This document shows positions 4,571 to 57,000 of a stretch of 64,000 nucleotides of DNA, one piece after another (position 1 is the first letter of the stretch; every line of letters begins with the position of its first letter). Source of the stretch: Paucibacter sp. B2R-40 (GTDB lineage: Bacteria; Pseudomonadota; Gammaproteobacteria; Burkholderiales; Burkholderiaceae_C); contig NZ_JAJIRP010000005.1 in the NCBI RefSeq assembly GCF_025717555.1, positions 372,001 to 436,000 of the forward strand, read 5' to 3'. Made by a program: the position numbers and the translations under genes. The notes under the pieces are model-generated. The model ran no database searches and was not told the origin of the DNA. It saw nothing but the letters and a program-made list of their open reading frames with translations.

Positions 4571-5149
4571 ATGTCACAAACCCGCATCGTTCTCACCAAC
4601 CAGTTTTTGATCGCCATGCCCGGCATGCTTGATGAAGGCTTCAAAGGTGCCGTGATCTATATGTGCGAGCACAACGAGAACGGCGCCCTGGGTCTGGTCA
4701 TCAACCGGCCGATGGCGATGACGCTGGGCAATCTATTCGAAAAAGTCGATCTGACCCCGCCCAAAGATGCGCTGGCCGACAGACCCGTTTTTTACGGCGG
4801 CCCGGTGCAACCGGAACGCGGCTTCGTCTTGCACGCGCCGCTGGACGCCGCCGGCAACCATTACAACGCCACCATGATCGTGCCCGGCGGCCTGGAGATG
4901 ACCACCAGCCGCGATGTGCTCGAAGCCTTGTCCAACGGTGCCGGTCCCAAGCGGGTCTTCGTCACGCTGGGCTATAGCGGTTGGGCAGCGGGTCAGTTAG
5001 AGGAAGAAATCGGCCGCAATGGCTGGCTCACCGTCGAGGCGACGAAAGAGATCATTTTCGACACACCGGTTGAGCTGCGCTATGAACGCGCACTGGGTCT
5101 GCTCGGTGTCGATCCGCGCATGCTGAGCCAAGAGGCCGGCCACGCATGA
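4571..5149 (+). CDS. algH: YqgE/AlgH family protein (DUF179)
   Basis: The 192-residue protein carries the family hallmarks: NQFLIAMPGM near the N-terminus, GALGLVINRP, VFYGGPVQPERGFVLH and a C-terminal GYSGWAAGQLEEEI. The biochemical role of the family is not settled; it was named from an alginate-regulation phenotype in Pseudomonas and is widely found beside the ruvX gene, as here. It is the first gene of the plus-strand operon running through pyrR, pyrB and plsC; its stop overlaps the ruvX ATG by 4 bp (ATGA), which implies translational coupling. Confidence 0.93.
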   Translation: MSQTRIVLTNQFLIAMPGMLDEGFKGAVIYMCEHNENGALGLVINRPMAMTLGNLFEKVDLTPPKDALADRPVFYGGPVQPERGFVLHAPLDAAGNHYNATMIVPGGLEMTTSRDVLEALSNGAGPKRVFVTLGYSGWAAGQLEEEIGRNGWLTVEATKEIIFDTPVELRYERALGLLGVDPRMLSQEAGHA

Positions 5150-5547
5150 TCACATCGGCGAGCTCCGCGCAGTCCCTGCTGGCTTTCGACTTCGGCATCA
5201 AACGCGTCGGCGTCGCCAACGGCAGCCGCTTCACCGGCCGGGGCGAGCCGCTCAAGCACATTGCCATGGAGGGCGAGGCGCGTTTTTTGGCCATCGCCAA
5301 GCTGATCAAGGAATGGCAGCCCGATGCACTGGTGATTGGCGTGCCTTTTCATCCCGACGGTGCCGAGCATGAGATCACCCAGCGCGCGCGCCGCTTTGGC
5401 CGCCAGCTCAAAGGGCGCTTCAATTTGCCGGTGTTCGAGGTCGATGAGCGCTACACCAGCGTCGAGGCGGAGAGTTATGGCGTGCGTGATGTCGACTCCA
5501 CCGCTGCCGCCCTGATTCTTGAACAATTTTTTAATGAAAACCCATGA
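5146..5547 (+). CDS. ruvX: RuvX/YqgF Holliday-junction resolvase-like nuclease
   Basis: The 133-residue protein shows the RNase-H-like fold motifs: the first catalytic Asp in LLAFDFGIKRVGVAN, the glutamate strand ALVIGVPF, DERYTSVEAE and the C-terminal DSTAAALILEQFF. Family members process pre-16S rRNA 5' ends and have been proposed to act on Holliday junctions. The start overlaps the algH stop (ATGA) and its own stop overlaps the first of four repeated mini reading frames (ATGA at 5544-5547). Confidence 0.93.
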   Translation: MITSASSAQSLLAFDFGIKRVGVANGSRFTGRGEPLKHIAMEGEARFLAIAKLIKEWQPDALVIGVPFHPDGAEHEITQRARRFGRQLKGRFNLPVFEVDERYTSVEAESYGVRDVDSTAAALILEQFFNENP

Positions 5548-5630
5548 CTAGCCCCCAGCAAACCTTGTTTGCAGCCCCCCACGGGGGCTCCGTCCTTTCT
5601 TGGGGCGGTCCGGCGAAAGGACTTGTATGA
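5544..5630 (+). CDS. repeat-encoded mini-ORF 1 (28 aa)
   Basis: The 28-codon frame begins MTSPQQTLFAAP and ends SWGGPAKGLV. Its ATG overlaps the ruvX stop (ATGA) and its TGA overlaps the next ATG at 5627. It is the most diverged of the four copies at the protein level, yet the second half is unchanged. Expression is unproven; it may be a translated spacer rather than a functional peptide. Confidence 0.4.
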   Translation: MTSPQQTLFAAPHGGSVLSWGGPAKGLV

Positions 5631-5713
5631 CGACCCCCACGCAAACCTTGTTTGCTGCCCCCCGAGAGGGCGCAGTCCTTTCTTGGGGCGGCCCGGCGAA
5701 AGGACTTTTATGA
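5627..5713 (+). CDS. repeat-encoded mini-ORF 2 (28 aa)
   Basis: The frame begins MTTPTQTLFAAP and ends SWGGPAKGLL. GAAAGGAC at 5615-5622 is a good ribosome-binding site 4-5 bp before the ATG. The stop overlaps the start of the third copy in an ATGA. One silent C/T difference (Thr codon) separates it from copies 3 and 4 in the first third. Confidence 0.42.
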   Translation: MTTPTQTLFAAPREGAVLSWGGPAKGLL

Positions 5714-5796
5714 CGACCCCCACGCAAACTTTGTTTGCTGCCCCCCGAGAGGGCGCAGTCCTTTCTTGGGGCGGCCCGGCGAAAGGACTTTTATGA
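5710..5796 (+). CDS. repeat-encoded mini-ORF 3 (28 aa)
   Basis: The peptide is identical to that of copy 2 and is preceded by the same GAAAGGAC element. It is coupled to the fourth copy by ATGA at 5793. Because the unit length (83) is not a multiple of three, the open frame is kept only through these stop/start overlaps, not by read-through. Confidence 0.42.
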   Translation: MTTPTQTLFAAPREGAVLSWGGPAKGLL

Positions 5797-5879
5797 CGAC
5801 CCCCACGCAAACTTTGTTTGCTGCCCCCCGAGAGGGCGCAGTCCTTTCTTGGGGCGGCCCGGCGAAAGGACTCGCATGA
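5793..5879 (+). CDS. repeat-encoded mini-ORF 4 (28 aa), coupled to pyrR
   Basis: This copy begins MTTPTQTLFAAP and ends GPAKGLA. Its TGA (5877-5879) overlaps the pyrR ATG (5876-5878), so ribosomes finishing it are placed at the pyrR start. The GAAAGGAC before the pyrR ATG is the terminal arm of the unit's inverted repeat. Confidence 0.42.
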   Translation: MTTPTQTLFAAPREGAVLSWGGPAKGLA

Positions 5880-6376
5880 GCACCCTCCTACTTGATGCCG
5901 AGGCCATCTACGCCGATCTTTTGAAGGGCGTGCAAAAGTTGCTCAGGCCCGAGGCCGCGCTGGTGGGCATCTGGTCCGGCGGCGCCTGGCTGGCCGAGCG
6001 CTTGCAGGCCGATCTGGGCCTGCCCGGCAGTGCCGGCGTGATCTCCAGCTCGCTGCACCGCGACGACTTCGGTTCACGCGGCATGTCAGCCAGCGCAGAC
6101 CATACCAAGCTGCCGTTTGACGTCAGCGCTAGGCACATCTTGCTGATCGACGATGTGCTGTTCACCGGTCGCACCACCCGCGCGGTGATCAACGAGCTGT
6201 TCGACTTTGGCCGCCCGGCTAGCGTGACGCTGGCGGTGTTGGTGGACCGAGGCGGGCGCGAGCTGCCGATCGAGCCGGCCTTCTCGGCCGCGCGCATCCA
6301 TCTGGCCGCCGAGCAACGCGTGCGACTGGCCAAGAGTGCCGACGGCCGCTTCAGCTTCGACCTCAAAGGAGATTGA
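5876..6376 (+). CDS. pyrR: PyrR-type uracil phosphoribosyltransferase / pyrimidine regulator
   Basis: The 166-residue protein has the PRPP-binding loop ILLIDDVLFTGRTTRAV at about residues 85-101 and the PyrR-type SSLHRDDFGSRG segment. Family members convert uracil and PRPP to UMP, and in Gram-positive bacteria bind pyr mRNA to cause attenuation. The start at 5876 is chosen because the longer in-frame extension runs only through the 83-bp repeats. The gene is followed 3 bp later by pyrB, so a role in pyrimidine supply or regulation is likely. Whether it binds RNA here cannot be told from the sequence; no Gram-positive style anti-terminator is evident upstream. Confidence 0.9.
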   Translation: MSTLLLDAEAIYADLLKGVQKLLRPEAALVGIWSGGAWLAERLQADLGLPGSAGVISSSLHRDDFGSRGMSASADHTKLPFDVSARHILLIDDVLFTGRTTRAVINELFDFGRPASVTLAVLVDRGGRELPIEPAFSAARIHLAAEQRVRLAKSADGRFSFDLKGD

Positions 6377-6379
6377 CCG

Positions 6380-7342
6380 ATGCTCAGCAAACGCAATCCG
6401 CAACTGAACAAACACGGCGAGCTGGTCCACCTGCTTTCCATCGAAGGTCTGCCGCAGGCCAATATCCAGCAAATTCTGGACACTGCCGGCAGCTTTCTCT
6501 CGGTCAATGACCGCGAGGTCAAGAAGGTGCCGCTGCTCCGCGGCAAGTCGGTATTCAATCTCTTCTTCGAGAACAGCACGCGTACCCGCACGACTTTTGA
6601 GATCGCCGCCAAGCGGCTGTCGGCCGATGTCTTGAATCTGGACATCGCACGCAGCTCCACGGCCAAGGGCGAGACCCTGCTCGACACCGTGGCCAATCTG
6701 TCGGCCATGCACGCGGATATGTTCGTCGTGCGCCACAGCGAGAGCGGCGCGCCCTACCTGATCGCCCAGCATTGCGCGCCGCATGTGCATGTGGTCAACG
6801 CCGGTGACGGCCGCCACGCGCACCCGACGCAGGGTCTGCTGGACATGTACACGATCCGGCATTTCAAAAAGGACTTCCGCAATCTGACGGTGGCCATCGT
6901 CGGCGACATCGTCCATTCGCGCGTGGCCCGCTCGGACATCCATGCGCTGAACATCCTCGGCGTGCCCGAGATTCGCGCTGTTGGCCCCAAGACCTTGGTG
7001 CCCGGCGATCTGCGGGAGATGGGCGTGAGGGTCTGTCACGATATGGCCGAGGGCGTGCGCGGCGCCGACGTGATCATCATGCTGCGCCTGCAAAACGAGC
7101 GCATGAACGGCGGCATGCTGCCCAGCGCCGGTGAGTTCTTCAAGAACTTCGGCCTGACGCCGGAGAAGCTGGCGCTGGCCAAGCCCGACGCGATCGTGAT
7201 GCACCCGGGGCCAATCAACCGCGGCGTGGAAATCTCGTCCACGGTGGCCGACGGCGCACAAAGCGTGATCCTGCCGCAAGTGACCTTTGGTATCGCGGTG
7301 CGGATGGCCGTGATGTCTATCTTGGCTGGAAACGAAGCATGA
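6380..7342 (+). CDS. pyrB: aspartate carbamoyltransferase catalytic chain
   Basis: The 320-residue enzyme makes N-carbamoyl-L-aspartate from carbamoyl phosphate and aspartate. Visible motifs are the carbamoyl-phosphate loop [29 protein letters not shown] and the C-terminal MHPGPINRG. No pyrI regulatory-chain gene follows; instead the stop overlaps (ATGA) a gene for an inactive-looking dihydroorotase, as in the PyrB-PyrC' type of ATCase described from Pseudomonas. The likely holoenzyme is therefore a PyrB/PyrX dodecamer rather than a PyrB/PyrI enzyme (inference from gene order). Confidence 0.96.
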
Positions 7343-8661
7343 AGATATTGATCAAGAACGGTCGATTGATCGACCCCGCCTCGGGCCTGGACCGCAGCGG
7401 CGATCTGGCGATTGCCAATGGCCGCATCGTGGGCTTGGGTGAGCCTAGCGACTTCGCCGCCGACCGCGTCATTGACGCGACAGGCCTGATCGTCGCACCC
7501 GGCCTAGTCGATCTGGCCGCACGCCTGCGCGAGCCCGGCCATGAGCACGAAGGCATGTTGGACAGCGAGCTGGCTGCAGCCGCGGCCGGTGGTGTCACCA
7601 GCCTGGTCTGCCCGCCCGACACCGAGCCGGTGCTCGACGAGCCCGGCCTGGTCGAGATGCTGAAGTTTCGCGCCCGCAAGCTCAGCCGCTGCCGCCTGTT
7701 TCCACTCGGCGCCTTGACGCAGGGCTTGGCGGGTCAGGCCTTGACCGAAATGGCCGAGCTGACCGAAGCCGGCTGCATCGGTTTCTCGCAGGCCGAAGTG
7801 CCGGTGCGCGACACCTTGGTGCTGGCACGCGCCCTGCTCTATGCGGCAACCTATGACTACCAGGTCTGGCTACGCCCGCAGGACGCTTACCTCGGCGGCG
7901 GAGTGGCGGCCAGTGGCGCGATGGCGACGCGCTTGGGCCTGAGCGGCGTGCCGGTGATGGCCGAGACGGTCGCGCTGCACACGATTTTCGAGCTGATGCG
8001 CTCGACCGGCGCGCGGGTTCATCTGTGCCGCATCTCCAGCGCGGCCGGCGTCGAGCTGGTGCGCGCCGCCAAGCGCGAGGGGCTGAAGCTGACCGCCGAT
8101 GTGTCGATCAACTCGCTGCACCTGACCGATGTGGACATTGGTTATTTCAACCCCGCGATGCGGCTCACGCCGCCACTGCGCCAGGGCCGCGACCGCGACG
8201 CGCTGCGCGCCGGCCTGGCCGACGGCACGCTGGACGCCTTGGTCAGCGACCATATGCCGGTCACCGCCGACGAAAAGAACGTGCCGTTCGCCGAAGCCAC
8301 ACCGGGTGCGACCGGACTGGAATTGCTCTTAAGCCTGGCGCTGCGCTGGGCCGCCGACGAAGGCTTGCCCGTGGCGCGTGCGCTGGAGGTCGTCACCGCC
8401 AAGCCGGTGCAGGTTTTGGGCGTCGCCTTGGGGTCGCTGGGTGCCAGCGCCGGCCGCTTGGTGGTGGGCGGCGTCGCCGATGTCTGCGTGTTCGACCCGG
8501 CAGCCAGCTGGGCCGTCACACCAGAACTATTGAGCAGCCAGGGCAAGCACACACCGTTTGCGTTCGAGACCAGCGGTTTCGAGTTGCCGGCACGGGTGCG
8601 CTACACCTTGGTGGCCGGGCATATGGCGTTCGAATCCAGCCAAGAGGCGGCTAGCGCTTGA
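7339..8661 (+). CDS. pyrX: dihydroorotase-like protein PyrX (probably non-catalytic ATCase subunit)
   Basis: The 440-residue amidohydrolase-family protein aligns with dihydroorotase through [21 protein letters not shown] and [15 protein letters not shown]. The metal-binding HxH that should precede LREPG is replaced: the sequence reads [13 protein letters not shown], with no histidines. Active enzymes have D-x-H-x-H at this place. This matches the inactive PyrC' (PyrX) homologues that hold PyrB in an active assembly in pseudomonads. The start overlaps pyrB by ATGA. An active dihydroorotase must be encoded elsewhere if the cell is prototrophic. Confidence 0.9.
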
Positions 8662-24557: not shown

Positions 24558-24716
24558 CTGCGAACTCCCCGCCCCCCAAGGGGGCAATATTTGTGATCGG
24601 AGTATCGCGAGATCGTCACGCGCCCTCCAGCGCTGAGTGACGAACTGCAGTTTTCAGCGCTCCAAGCGCAGCGCCGTGGGGTGAGAGTCAGCTTGCATCA
24701 GTTCCGCGTCGTCCAT

Positions 24717-51081: not shown

Positions 51082-54000
51082 ATGAACGAGCACGCCAGCA
51101 TCAACCGCCTCTACCGACTGATTTGGAACGCAAGCACCGGCACCTGGGTCGCGGTCAGCGAACTCAGCCGCGCGCGGGGCAAGCGCAGCAATGCTGGCGC
51201 CAGCGGAATCAGCGCGCTCCTGGCCGCGCTCAAAGCCTTGCCGCTCTCGCTTGCGCTAGGCCTTGGGTGCGTGCAAGCTGCGCCGCCCGTCAACACCGTC
51301 CCGCAAGGTGGCCAAGTGGTGGCCGGCCAGGCCAGCATCTCGTCCGGTACTTCGGCCGGCGGCGCTCGCCTGGATGTCAATCAGAGCAGCCAACGCGCCG
51401 CCATCGACTGGCAAAGTTTCAATCTCGGCGCCAACGCACAAATTAACTTCAAGCAGCCTGATGCGGCCAGCGTGATCTTGAACCGCGTGCTGGACGCGCA
51501 GCCGAGCCAGATCTTTGGCCGCATCACGTCCAATGGTCAGGTCTTCTTGAGCAACCCGGCCGGCATCTATTTCAGCCCGACAGCCAGCGCCGATGTCGGC
51601 GCCCTGGTGGCCACCACACACAGCATCTCCACCGCCGACTTCATCGCCGGCAAAACCACCTTCGACCGCAATGGCTCGACGGCCAGCGTCATCAACGCTG
51701 GCTCCATAACCTCCAGTCTGGGCGGCTATGTCGCCCTGCTGGCGCCCGAGGTGCGCAATGAAGGCGTGATCCTGGCCCAAGCCGGTACGGTGGCGCTGGC
51801 CGCCGGCGAAATGATAGAGCTGCAATTCAACGGCACGCGCCTGAGCAAATTGCTGGTCAGCCCGGCCAGCGTGGCTGCCTTGGTGGACAACCGCCAGGCA
51901 GTGCTGGCACCCGATGGCCTGATCCTGCTAACGGCCCGAGGCGCGCAAGAGCTGAGTGGCGGCGTAATTCAACACAGCGGCAAGTTGCAGGCCAACTCGC
52001 TCAGCGACAAGGGCGGCCGCATCGTGCTGGAGGCCGACACCATCACGCTCGCCGCCGGCTCATCGCTGGACGCCAGCGGTGCAATCGGCGGCGGCCAGGT
52101 CCTGGTCGGCGGCGACTGGCAAGGCGCGGGCGCCATGCATCAGGCCAGCAATGTCACGATGGCGGCCGGCGCCAAGATCGACGCCTCGGCCGGCCAGGTC
52201 GGCGACGGCGGTACGGTGGTGCTGTGGAGCGATGTTCACAATCCACTCGGCGTGACCAGCGCGCATGGCGAGATCCTGGCTCAAGGCGGGTCGACCAGTG
52301 GAATTGGCGGCCAGGTCGAAACCTCGAGCCATAAGCTGGACGTGAACGGCATTCGCGTCAGCACCGCAGCACCGACGGGGCAGCCTGGGCAGACCGGGCG
52401 CTGGTTGCTTGACCCCTATGACTTCACCATTGCAGCCAGCGGCGGTGACATCAGCGGCGCCGACCTGGCCACGCTGCTGGTCAATAGCAACATCACGATA
52501 CAAACCGCGCTGTCACCCACCGCCTCGCCAACAAACCTGATCGGCAACAGCGGCACGGCAGGAGACATTTTGATCAAGGACGCGTTGTCCTGGAGTGCCA
52601 ACAAGCTCACCCTCAGCGCCTATAACAACATCACCGTCAGCGCCAACCTGAATGCCAGCGCCACGGCCAGCCTGGCGCTGGAGTTTGGCCTGGGCGCCGT
52701 CGCGACAGGCAATACCAGCAACTTCACCACCGCCGCCGGCGCGGCAGTGAACCTGCCGGCGGGCAGCAGCAACTTCACAACCCGTCAGGGCTCGAACGGC
52801 ACGCTCAAGAACTACACCGTCATCAACAGCGCCGGCGTGACCGGCAGCGTCACCAAGACCGATCTGCAAGGCATGCATGGCGACAGGACGCTGAACTATG
52901 CCTTGGGCGCCAATATTGACGCAACCGGTGTGGACTTCCTCCCGATCGGCACGAATATCGGACCTTATGCCGGCAGCTTCGATGGCCTGGGGCATCAAGT
53001 CAGCAATTTGACGATCAACCAAGCCGGCAAGAGCGACATTGGGCTCTTCAACAAATTGGCCGCAGGTGCAACGATCAAGAACGTCGGGCTGCTGGGCGGC
53101 AGCATCAGTGGCCTTAGCAATGTCGGCGCTCTGGTCGGCGACAACGCCGGCACCGTCAGCAACAGTTACGCCACCAGCCAGGTCACGGGCAGCGGCAGCT
53201 CTGCCGGCGGCCTGCTTGGCAAAGTCAGCGCTGGCACGGTCAGCAACAGCTTTGCCACCGGCCCGGTGACTGGCAGCGGCAGCGCGGTCGGCGGCTTGGT
53301 TGGCACCGTCACTGGCGGCACGGTCAGCGCCAGCTACGCCAGCGGCAATGTGTCGGGCGCCAGCGACGTCGGTGGCTTGGTGGGCTTGAACTCAGGCGGC
53401 AACGGTTTGACGCCTGCGAGCCAAAGGAGTCCAGGTACTGGAGTAGCCGGTGCTAATGGCAGCAATGCGCTGATCACCAATAGCTATGCCACGGGCTCAG
53501 CGACGGGAACGGGCAGCAATGTAGGTGGCCTAGTCGGCCGCAATCTCGGTGGCAACGGAGGGCGCGGTGGTGACGCAACCACAGTGGGAGCGATTGGTGG
53601 CAAGGGTGGAAACGGTGGCTCGGCAAGCATTTCTAACAGTTACGCCACCGGCGCGGCAACGGGATCCACGCTTGGCGGACTGGCTGGTGCTCGCAGCAGT
53701 GGAAGCAGCGGAACTATCGGCAGATACCTCTCTGGATCCACTGCCGGCGCAGGCGGCAGTGGCGGCACAGCCAGCACCAACGCCAGCTACTGGAACACCA
53801 GCACATCCGGCAACGCCACTTCTGCGGCCGGCACCGGCAAAAATACCGCGCAGATGCAGGCCATGGCCACGTTTTCGGGCTGGACGATATCCACATCGCC
53901 CGCGAGTTCGGACATGTCCCCTTGGTTCATTTACGAAGGCCAGACCGCGCCCTTGTTGCGCAGCTTTCTGACCCCGCTCAGTGTGACCGTGGGCAATGTC

Positions 54001-57000
54001 AGCAGAACCTATGACGGTCAGACCTATGGCGACGCGCCGGCCCTCAGCTATTCGCTCACACCGAATGCCAATCTCTTGGGCAGCCTGAGCTGGGTCAATG
54101 CAAAGAACGCCGGCAGCTACGCCGCCAGCGGCAGCTTGCACTCCAATCAGCAGGGCTATCTGATCAGCGTCGCCGGCGGCACGTTGACGGTGAATCCCGC
54201 CACATTGAACCTGCAAGGCACGCGCAGCTACGACGGGAGCACCGCTTTTGCAGGGGCGCAGCTGAGCGCCATCGGCGTCCACGGCGAGACCTTCTCGGTC
54301 AGCGGTGCGGGCCAGAGCGGCAATCTGAGCAGCAAGCAGGTGCAGACCAACCAAGCGCTGGCCAGCATTGACGGCCTGAGCCTGGGCAGCAGCAACAACG
54401 GTGGCTTGGCCGGCAACTACAACGCGCTCGGCACGGCGGGCAGCTCGGTCAGCATCACGCCGGCGAGCGTGACGGTCAGCGGCCTCACGGCCCATAACAA
54501 GACCTATGACGGCTCAACCACCGCCAGCTTGAACAGCGGTGCCGCAGCCTTCACGGGCATGATCGCTGCCGATCACCTCAATGTGGCCAGCGCCAGCGGC
54601 GCCTTTGTCGACAAGAACGCCGGCAGCGGCAAAACGGTCAATATCAGCGGCATCACCCTGGGTGGCGCCGATGCCGGCAACTACGCCTTGAGCAACACAT
54701 CGGCCAGCAGCACGGCCGATATCAGCAAGGCGCCACTCACCGTCACGGCGGACAGCAAGAGCCGAATTTATGGCGCAGCCAATCCGGCACTGACGACCGC
54801 GATCAGCGGCTTTGTAAATGGCGAGACGCTGGCGAATTCCGGCGTCACAGGTAGTGCCGGCGCAACGACTTCTGCAACAACTGCCACCGGCGTCGGCAAC
54901 GCCATCATCAGCGCCGGTATCGGCTCGCTGACCGCCAGCAATTACGTTTTCAACAGCTTCACCGATGGCACGCTGACCATCAACAAGGCGCATCTGAGTG
55001 TCACCGCCGATGACAAAAGCCGAACGTATGGCGCCGCCAACCCGTCACTGACGACAACAATCAGCGGCTTCGGCAATGGCGAGACATTGGCAACTTCTGG
55101 CGTGAGCGGCAATGCTGGCGCGACCACTTCCGCAACAACTGCTACCGCCGTTGGATCTGCCATCATCAATGCCAGCCCCGGCTCGCTGGCGGCCAGCAAT
55201 TACGATTTCACGACGCTCACGAACGGCACGCTGAGCATCGACAAAGCACATTTGACCGTCACGGCCGATGACAAAAGCCGGCTCTACGGCGCAGCCAATC
55301 CAGCGCTGACGACAACAATCAGCGGCTTCGTCAATGGCGAGACGCTGGCCAACTCAGGCATCAGTGGCAGCGCCAGCGCCAGCACGCCGGCTGGGGCCGC
55401 CACAAGCGCTGGCCTTAGCAACATCACACCGGCCATCGGCACACTCAGCGCCAGCAACTATGACTTCCCGCTGCTGGTCGATGGCCGGCTTGACATCAGC
55501 AAAGCACCCTTGCTGGTCACTGCCACGCCCTTCAGCAAGACCTACGACGGCCAAGCGTTTTTCGGCGGCAACGGCGCCGCCTACAGCGGCTTGGTCAATA
55601 GTGAAAGCGCAGCGGTATTGGCCGGCGCTTTGAGCTTTGCCGGCAGCAGCCAAGGGGCACGCAAGGTCGGCCGCTACGTCCTGACGCCCACAGGCCTGAG
55701 CAGCGCCAACTACACCATCAACTATGCCGACGCCGCACTGGAAATCACACGCGCCAGCATCAGCGCCGTTACCGGCATCAGCGCTGCGGACAAAATCTAT
55801 GATGGATCAACGGCAGCCTCGCTCAATAACGCAGGCGCAGCCTTCACCGGCATGATGGTGGGCGACCGCCTGACGGTGGCCAGCGCCAGCGGCAGTTTTG
55901 CCGACAAAAATGCCGGCATTGCAAAGTCGGTCAGCATCAGCGGCTTGAGCCTGGGCGGCGAGGATGCCGGCAATTACAGCTTGAGCAGCAATGTCGCCAG
56001 TGCTCAAGCCACTATCGAGCGCGCCGCCATTTCAGACGTCAGTGGCATCAGCGCCAATAGCAAAACCTATGACGGCACAAACGCGGCAACGCTGAATGCA
56101 AGCCAAGCGGTCTTCACGGGCAAGCTGGCCGGCGATGCCTTGAACGTCGCGGCGGCCAGCGCCAGCTTTGCCGACAAAGGCGCCGGCACCGGCAAGCCCG
56201 TCAGCATCAGCAACATCACCCTCGGCGGGGGCGATGCCGCCAACTATCGCCTATTGAATCCATCGGCCAGCAGCCAGGCCGACATTGCCAAGGCATTGAT
56301 CACTGCCATCACCGGCATCACTGCCAATAACAAGGTGGAAGACGGCTCAAGAGTCGCCAGCTTAAAACTCGACCAAGCCATTCTCACCGGGCGCATCGGC
56401 GCTGATCTCGTCAGCATCGCCCAGGCGCAAGGGAATTTCGATAACGCGCTGCCTGGCCTGCAAAAAACGGTCATGATCAGCGAACTGCAACTGGGCGGCG
56501 CTGACGCCGGCAACTACCAACTAGCGGCCGGCATTGCCAGCACCCAGGCGGACATCGGCAAAAAGGCCGCGCTCAGCGAACCGACGGTGTTGCCGCCCTA
56601 TCCCCCGCAGCCATCGGTGACACCGGCCACGCGGTCCCAGGCGCCAAGCACTGCCGGTTTGGTAGCGTCTTCGCCGCCTGCAGCGGCAGCCCCAGCCGCG
56701 CTCGCCGGCCCAAACGCAGTGACACCAAGCAATGGCGGCAACAGCAACAGCAACAGCAGCAGCAATGGCAATGGCAATGGCAATGGCGGACGCAGCAATG
56801 CCGGCGTCACGGCGGTTTTGACGCGTCTTCCTTCGGCCGAACAGCCCGGCATTGCCAGCATCTTGATCCCACTCAGCAGCGCCGCCGCCGGGGAAGGATT
56901 CAAGTTCAGCTTGCCACAGGAATTGGTCGCGGCCATGGGCAGCAGCGGCGCCGCAGCAAGTGTCAGCAGCTTGAATGGTGAAGCCCTTCCGAGCTGGCTG

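Follow-up and report, generated by a model that had tools for sequence, protein, structure and literature searches.

The four tandem 83-bp units that lie between ruvX and pyrR in the window (the whole 64-kb stretch of DNA analysed) are probably copies of a Beta-proteobacterial Repeat Element (BRE)-type repeat that was inserted in the ruvX/pyrR overlap and most likely amplified there, and whose bridging frames preserve the coupling of the two genes. The units are copies of a dispersed repeat of about 75–90 bp that is not tied to pyrimidine genes. At ATGA junctions, the start-to-start distance across this element is mostly 2 mod 3, which leaves a frame open from the upstream stop to, or beside, the downstream start. 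That the insert's length tracks its reading context is a new finding. The repeat itself is very probably one already known; the new points are the frame-locked bridging of gene overlaps and a variable paired stem.

The array between ruvX and pyrR

The array spans positions 5544–5879, where Tandem Repeats Finder gives a period of 83, 4.0 copies, and 94% matches. Each unit holds a mini-frame of 28 codons plus a stop, with ATGA at both ends, and the stop of one mini-frame is shared with the start of the next unit. The first mini-ATG overlaps the ruvX stop, and the TGA of the last mini-frame overlaps the pyrR ATG (5876). The four 83-bp units chained in this way had been predicted from the ruvX stop to the pyrR start, and repeat finder and frame coordinates agree with that prediction to the base. 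RuvX, PyrR, PyrB, and the PyrC-type dihydroorotase all score above an NCBIfam cut-off. The features of the region are as follows.

5146–5547, + strand: ruvX (Holliday junction resolvase); Pfam PF03652, TIGR00250 above cut-off; stop TGA at 5545–5547
5544–5626, + strand: unit 1, the most diverged copy; mini-frame 5544–5630, peptide MTSPQQTLFAAPHGGSVLSWGGPAKGLV and stop
5592–5622, + strand: hairpin of unit 1; stem GTCCTTT (5592–5598), 17-nt core with one change (5599–5615), stem AAAGGAC (5616–5622) with SD-like letters
5627–5709, + strand: unit 2; mini-frame 5627–5713, peptide MTTPTQTLFAAPREGAVLSWGGPAKGLL and stop
5675–5705, + strand: hairpin of unit 2; 7-nt stem, 17-nt core CTTGGGGCGGCCCGGCG, 7-nt stem
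5710–5792, + strand: unit 3; mini-frame 5710–5796, peptide identical to that of unit 2
5758–5788, + strand: hairpin of unit 3, from the sequence, the core search, and the family stem statistics
5793–5875, + strand: unit 4; mini-frame 5793–5879, ending in the ATGA of pyrR
5841–5871, + strand: hairpin of unit 4; 3′ stem AAAGGAC just upstream of the pyrR start
5876–6376, + strand: pyrR (PyrR-type bifunctional regulator/uracil phosphoribosyltransferase); NF003545, 204.9 bits against a cut-off of 140
6380–7342, + strand: pyrB (aspartate carbamoyltransferase); NF002032 above cut-off
7339–8661, + strand: pyrC-type dihydroorotase gene; NF005791 above cut-off, start overlapping the pyrB stop by 4 nt

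Of 83 bases, 12–14 distinguish unit 1 from units 2–4, which differ among themselves at 1–4. ATGA-to-ATGA frames of 15–50 codons were sought on both strands of the window, and 11 occur on the + strand and 4 on the − strand; a chain of four occurs solely at the array, and no chain longer than one was found elsewhere in the window on either strand. Further tandem repeats, of 84 and 258 bp (each divisible by three), are present at 53145–53346 and 54756–55363, perhaps inside a large repetitive protein gene, and a solitary CCCCCAAGGGGG hairpin, without the core, is located at 24573–24584.

Among 18 same-genus genomes, the ruvX–pyrR junction contains four units in G000, one in each of G001 and G005, and none in the other 15, in which ruvX and pyrR overlap directly. 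The existence of empty and one-unit alleles indicates that the array units are an insertion, and the comparison of copy number in related strains that had been proposed as a check accordingly reveals alleles of 4, 1, and 0 units. The single units of G001 and G005 differ by 3–7 bases from units 2–4 of the window genome and by 12–13 from its unit 1. On the simplest reading of these sequences, the units were most likely amplified later, in the lineage of the window genome; unit loss in other lineages may have occurred instead.

A dispersed betaproteobacterial repeat

The element consists of GCCCCCACG, a hairpin of variable sequence, CCCCCCGAGGGGG, and a second hairpin in which a 7-nt stem, the 17-nt core, and a matching 7-nt stem follow one another. 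In the genome that contains the window (5.61 Mb, 50 contigs), the core TTGGGGCGGCCCGGC has 31 matches with at most one mismatch, and its reversed control has 4; the array accounts for four of these 31, and the full element is missing from some of the others. The exact 16-nt core TTGGGGCGGCCCGGCG is present in 156 of 200 sampled family genomes and reaches 123 copies in G214 (three control matches among the rows listed). Tandem arrays elsewhere in the family have core spacings of 75–88 bp.

A scan of named genomes found the element in at least 118 stretches. Most titles among the matches listed (118 stretches) belong to Burkholderiales (Burkholderia, Trinickia, Achromobacter, Bordetella, Pigmentiphaga, Variovorax, Polaromonas, Acidovorax, Delftia, and others), two are Rhodocyclaceae or Rhodocyclales, one is a Gammaproteobacteria MAG (L322), and several carry merely the title Proteobacteria or Pseudomonadota. 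Named loci with the element also include Rhodoferax, and two-core arrays are found in Bordetella petrii and Bordetella genomosp. 5. One contig among the matches listed that is filed as a Desulfovibrionaceae MAG (L319) bears a typical copy, perhaps by a binning error or by transfer. Eight plasmid records match the element; phage records gave no match, and no vehicle was found.

Both in the genome of the window and across the family, the element adjoins or sits within many other genes. Among 145 element groups, 80 start near the stop of an upstream gene, 65 of them at 1–9 nt past that stop. In some genomes (e.g., L363, L376, L391), a second core type, CTTCGG..CGGCCGGGCGG, replaces TTGGGGCGGCCCGGC, and CCTAGAG/CTTGAG..GGCTCG variants also occur in its place; copies with the second core type have the overall layout of the main type, with ATGA at both ends. 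A search of the array against Rfam gave no match at E values up to 1, and one sub-threshold match to a miRNA model lies outside the array; in six other loci, RNase P RNA and 5S rRNA alone reached the gathering scores, both outside the element. The core as a letter string is absent from the literature searched, in which CCCCCGAGGGGG occurs in one unrelated paper.

The repeat is very probably the BRE, an assignment based on length, host range, tandem arrays, and partly intragenic habit rather than on letter-by-letter comparison with the published alignment. In the consulted part of its description, the BRE is a G+C-rich element of about 90 bp (75–91 bp) whose function is left open, dispersed in Bordetella, Polaromonas, Delftia, Acidovorax, Rhodoferax, and others, mostly intergenic with some copies in coding sequences, and forming tandem arrays of up to eight with strain-dependent copy number (Hot et al., 2011, BMC Genomics 12:207, PMC3110155). 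The present element is 83 bp long in the window and mostly 72–90 bp at other sites of the same genome, its copy number varies at ruvX–pyrR and it forms other arrays in the family, and it is found in Bordetella and in the comamonad genera listed for the BRE. The G+C content of the units is 61.4–65.1%, that of the window is 62.3%, and values of 63.7–78.9% are given in the excerpts for Bordetella BRE copies (PMC3110155). A BRE beside lexA is reported there for B. pertussis, B. bronchiseptica, and B. parapertussis only (PMC3110155); the lexA loci examined in B. genomosp. 5, B. petrii (where the locus ends at the contig end), and two Achromobacter yielded no copy, and a text-motif search for LexA in the element loci gave no match. 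The same excerpts contain no report of a reading-frame relay, of insertion in stop/start overlaps, or of a variable paired stem (PMC3110155).

Phase, insert length and the paired stem

Phase, meaning how far the downstream start lies from the left ATG (mod 3), was determined for single copies that are followed by a downstream frame and whose left edge is an ATGA at the end of a real upstream frame, 66 codons long or more; the rows are partly related, with some likely orthologs. For the 13 loci whose retrieval preceded the use of any ATGA pattern (an ortholog, L075, is excluded), the phase is 2 mod 3 in 12 (binomial p = 1.7e-5, kinship ignored), and the mini-frame stop lies on the downstream ATGA in 10. 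A later set of 31 loci, 30 of them obtained with a pattern that requires ATGA at both ends but leaves the phase free and one (L452) by similarity, has 24 at 2 mod 3 (p = 6e-7, kinship again ignored) and 23 with exact overlap. Exact overlaps range in length from 77 to 116, so the phase does not reflect one fixed length. The CCCC run of the element falls in each of the three reading frames (4/3/3 in the earlier loci and 11/8/4 in the later), which indicates that the overlap is kept and not the peptide. A comparison of Ka/Ks between units had also been proposed, and the codon differences reveal no clear peptide constraint (nonsynonymous/synonymous: 5/4 for unit 1 and the G005 unit, 6/3 for units 1 and 2, and 2/2 for unit 2 and the G005 unit).

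A wider count, which includes other xTGA stops and orthologs, finds a phase of 2 mod 3 in 45 of 63 single groups and exact overlap in 42, and a cruder count gives 13 of 16 overlapping-stop groups. The intended non-overlap control, in which TGATG/TAATG cases are left in, also leans to 2 mod 3 (9/15), and 25 of the 47 element groups that have both an upstream stop and a downstream start are without a bridging frame.

Insert lengths were derived by querying 22 other sites of the window genome in six relatives; 16 sites were measured, and 14 have an insert relative to at least one relative. At the seven intragenic sites (26, 28, 31, 41, 42, 43, and 44), defined by a reading frame conserved on both sides in a relative, the length is a multiple of three in every row with an insert. 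Net inserts are 84–87, 78, 72, and 78–84 bp at the sense sites 31, 41, 42, and 44, respectively, and 81, 75, and 90 bp at the antisense sites 26, 28, and 43; rows without an insert are either an occupied relative (L135) or unaligned across the insert (L192, L190, L163). Site 29, at an uncertain gene end, has 60, 66, 72, and 75 bp, also multiples of three, and one relative is occupied.

At ATGA-type junctions (ATGA or TGATGA), the 83-bp unit at ruvX–pyrR is 2 mod 3, as are the inserts at sites 27, 53, and 25 in the nearer relatives. Site 27 has 83 bp in three relatives (50 and 54 bp in two distant ones with longer spacers), site 53 has 77 bp in three (72, 72, and 74 bp in three distant ones), and site 25 has 83, 86, 86, 80, and 80 bp in five, with one unaligned. 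Other gene ends have 82–83 bp (site 48), 79–82 bp (site 50), and 76–80 bp (site 51, with two further rows unusable). Sites 32 and 46, which hold tandem copies, gave no useful alignment.

In-frame copies within genes (L011, L012, L004, L005, and L014) add 26–30 residues, sense or antisense, to otherwise conserved proteins. Rickettsia palindromic elements are short dispersed repeats that occur in frame within protein genes. The same holds for enterobacterial RU elements (PMC2759123). Both have other hosts, and frame-locked bridging of operon overlaps is not claimed for RU in the part of that source consulted (PMC2759123).

The 7-bp stem around the invariant 17-nt core varies in sequence between loci, with its pairing usually kept. 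For the 7 nt on each side of the core, mean pairing is 5.47 of 7 in the named loci L224–L303 (n = 95), 5.33 in the window genome (n = 18), and 5.80 in the relatives (n = 41), against 2.49 (sd 0.12), 2.38 (sd 0.38), and 2.25 (sd 0.23), respectively, when partners are shuffled among copies; these are 154 of the 197 collected elements, with L304–L341 left out and tandem copies counted singly. In the named set, the excess drops between positions 7 and 8. The ruvX–pyrR copies of G000, G001, and G005 have one common stem sequence, which indicates that stem variety lies between loci.

Two further readings of the copies were considered and rejected. If the 3′ stem were host sequence and the 5′ stem its copied complement, the native 7 nt should match; at clean empty junctions (sites 31, 42, 46, and 51, compared by eye), they do so at just 1–2 of 7 positions, and the stem there is therefore part of the insert. 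At sites 48 and 27 and at ruvX, the stem resembles host sequence, perhaps because both contain SD-like letters. With tandem arrays included, there seemed to be a direct duplication of about 12 nt; among 122 single copies the signal is weak (z of 2.0–2.3 at single offsets; mean best-offset match 5.25 of 12 versus 4.94, sd 0.10).

Proposed coupling by bridging frames and alternative readings

Stop/start overlaps of the 4-nt ATGA type couple translation by termination–reinitiation, and every junction of the array is likewise such an overlap. The putatively coupled "genes" are here four successive 28-codon frames from a mobile-like repeat. In reporter work, as given in the consulted part of the paper, gaps of about 20 nt almost abolish coupling (Huber et al., 2023, PMC10666635). 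Genes that overlap by ATGA would on this basis be expected to lose their coupling when 80 bp are inserted between them, save where a short frame spans the insert; the prevailing phase suggests that inserts with such a frame are the ones that persist. Ribosomes that end ruvX would restart at the first mini-start, traverse each unit, opening its hairpin, and then restart on the next mini-start; termination–reinitiation coupling would thus be retained despite the insert. Selection for the survival of frame-keeping inserts would suffice for this, and a feature evolved for the hosts would not be required. The original prediction of a translational relay is supported indirectly as regards coupling, in that the element at ATGA junctions in many genomes retains a bridging frame and short gaps are so damaging in the reporter data cited. 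As regards the output of pyrR, that extra units may lower or retune its translation relative to ruvX is a guess.

No report of a frame relay by such a repeat was found in the literature searched, which is not proof of its being unpublished. The frame-locked bridge offers a directly testable hypothesis for many copies of the BRE, which was published in 2011 without a function. The relay would explain how genes in a dense operon can stay coupled after taking up an 80-bp insert, and the 0, 1, and 4 mini-cistrons between the same two genes are a natural series for measuring reinitiation. A bolder proposal, which is possible but doubtful, is that the BRE is a portable relay cassette: a mobile repeat with a frame open in any phase and a ribosome-binding site or start in the variable 3′ stem, tandem copies of which serve as a step-wise tuner of ratio. 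Such a cassette could enter stop/start overlaps without uncoupling them, and its tandem amplification would tune the ratio of downstream to upstream protein.

It is rather unlikely that the repeat acts instead as an RNA or DNA hairpin at gene ends (an mRNA stabiliser, an attenuator, or a protein-binding site, as has been proposed for REP-type repeats), with the mini-frames merely tolerated by selection. The clustering of element groups just past upstream stops and a stem conserved by pairing and not by sequence are consistent with this role, as is the transcription of the BRE-bearing bprJ1/bprJ2 region of Bordetella reported in the extracts of PMC3110155; however, a gene-end hairpin does not predict that ATGA junctions have lengths of 2 mod 3 and intragenic sites 0 mod 3, except as a translation filter, and antisense copies occur inside genes too (sites 26, 28, and 43). 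REP-type repeats, in the part of the source consulted, are likewise multi-copy hairpin repeats outside genes (PMC3733652), but are 20–40 bp long compared with 75–90 bp here, and their GTAG/CGTC stem-foot tag is missing from the present element; a fixed tetranucleotide tag was looked for within 24 nt past the core of 122 single copies and not found. The available RepRanger text contains no match to Burkholderiales or BRE terms (PMC12306157).

Chance chaining of a G+C-rich repeat with few stop codons is already disfavoured and very improbable. The scarcity of stops would make any 2 mod 3 length tend to chain, and the skew of 9/15 in the non-overlap control, by which phase is not perfectly even elsewhere, fits this idea; against it stand the 12 of 13 pre-pattern loci at 2 mod 3 and the absence of any other chain of four in the window.

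That the units form a leader-peptide array sensing the pyrimidine or translation state for the pyr operon, as also originally suggested, is hardly credible: the array does lie directly before pyrR–pyrB–pyrC and encodes repeated short peptides, but the element also occurs beside and inside many other genes, is missing here from 15 of the 18 genomes of the genus, shows neither a fixed reading frame nor a clear peptide constraint, and contains in the array a sole terminator-like site, one 5-pair stem in unit 1. Two terminator-like sites turn up in the region 5000–6500, where shuffled sequence averages 1.8, and the search gave no promoter-like site. The pyrimidine setting of the array looks accidental.

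Returning to coupling by bridging frames, a ribosome that crosses a unit could also open the next start, since the 3′ stem of the hairpin holds SD-like AAAGGA in all four units here and a start codon in some copies elsewhere (TTTTCAT/ATGAAAA). Predicted folding agrees with this idea in units 2 and 3; agreement is slight in unit 1 and lacking in unit 4. Predicted sequestration of the SD-like letters is strong in units 2 and 3 (mean unpaired 0.00–0.08, versus 0.53 without the 5′ stem), weak in unit 1 (0.05–0.36 with the 5′ stem and 0.39 without), and absent in unit 4, before pyrR (0.26–0.48 with and 0.26 without); the three units folded are moderately more stable than shuffles, by 1.6–1.8 sd. 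Across the family, SD-like letters precede the downstream start in 6 of 10 exact overlaps of the earlier loci and 7 of 23 of the later loci. In L347, L408, L417, and L404, whose stem is of the TTTTCAT/ATGAAAA type, the hairpin contains the start codon of the downstream frame; copies of this type also often have ATGAA at the left edge.
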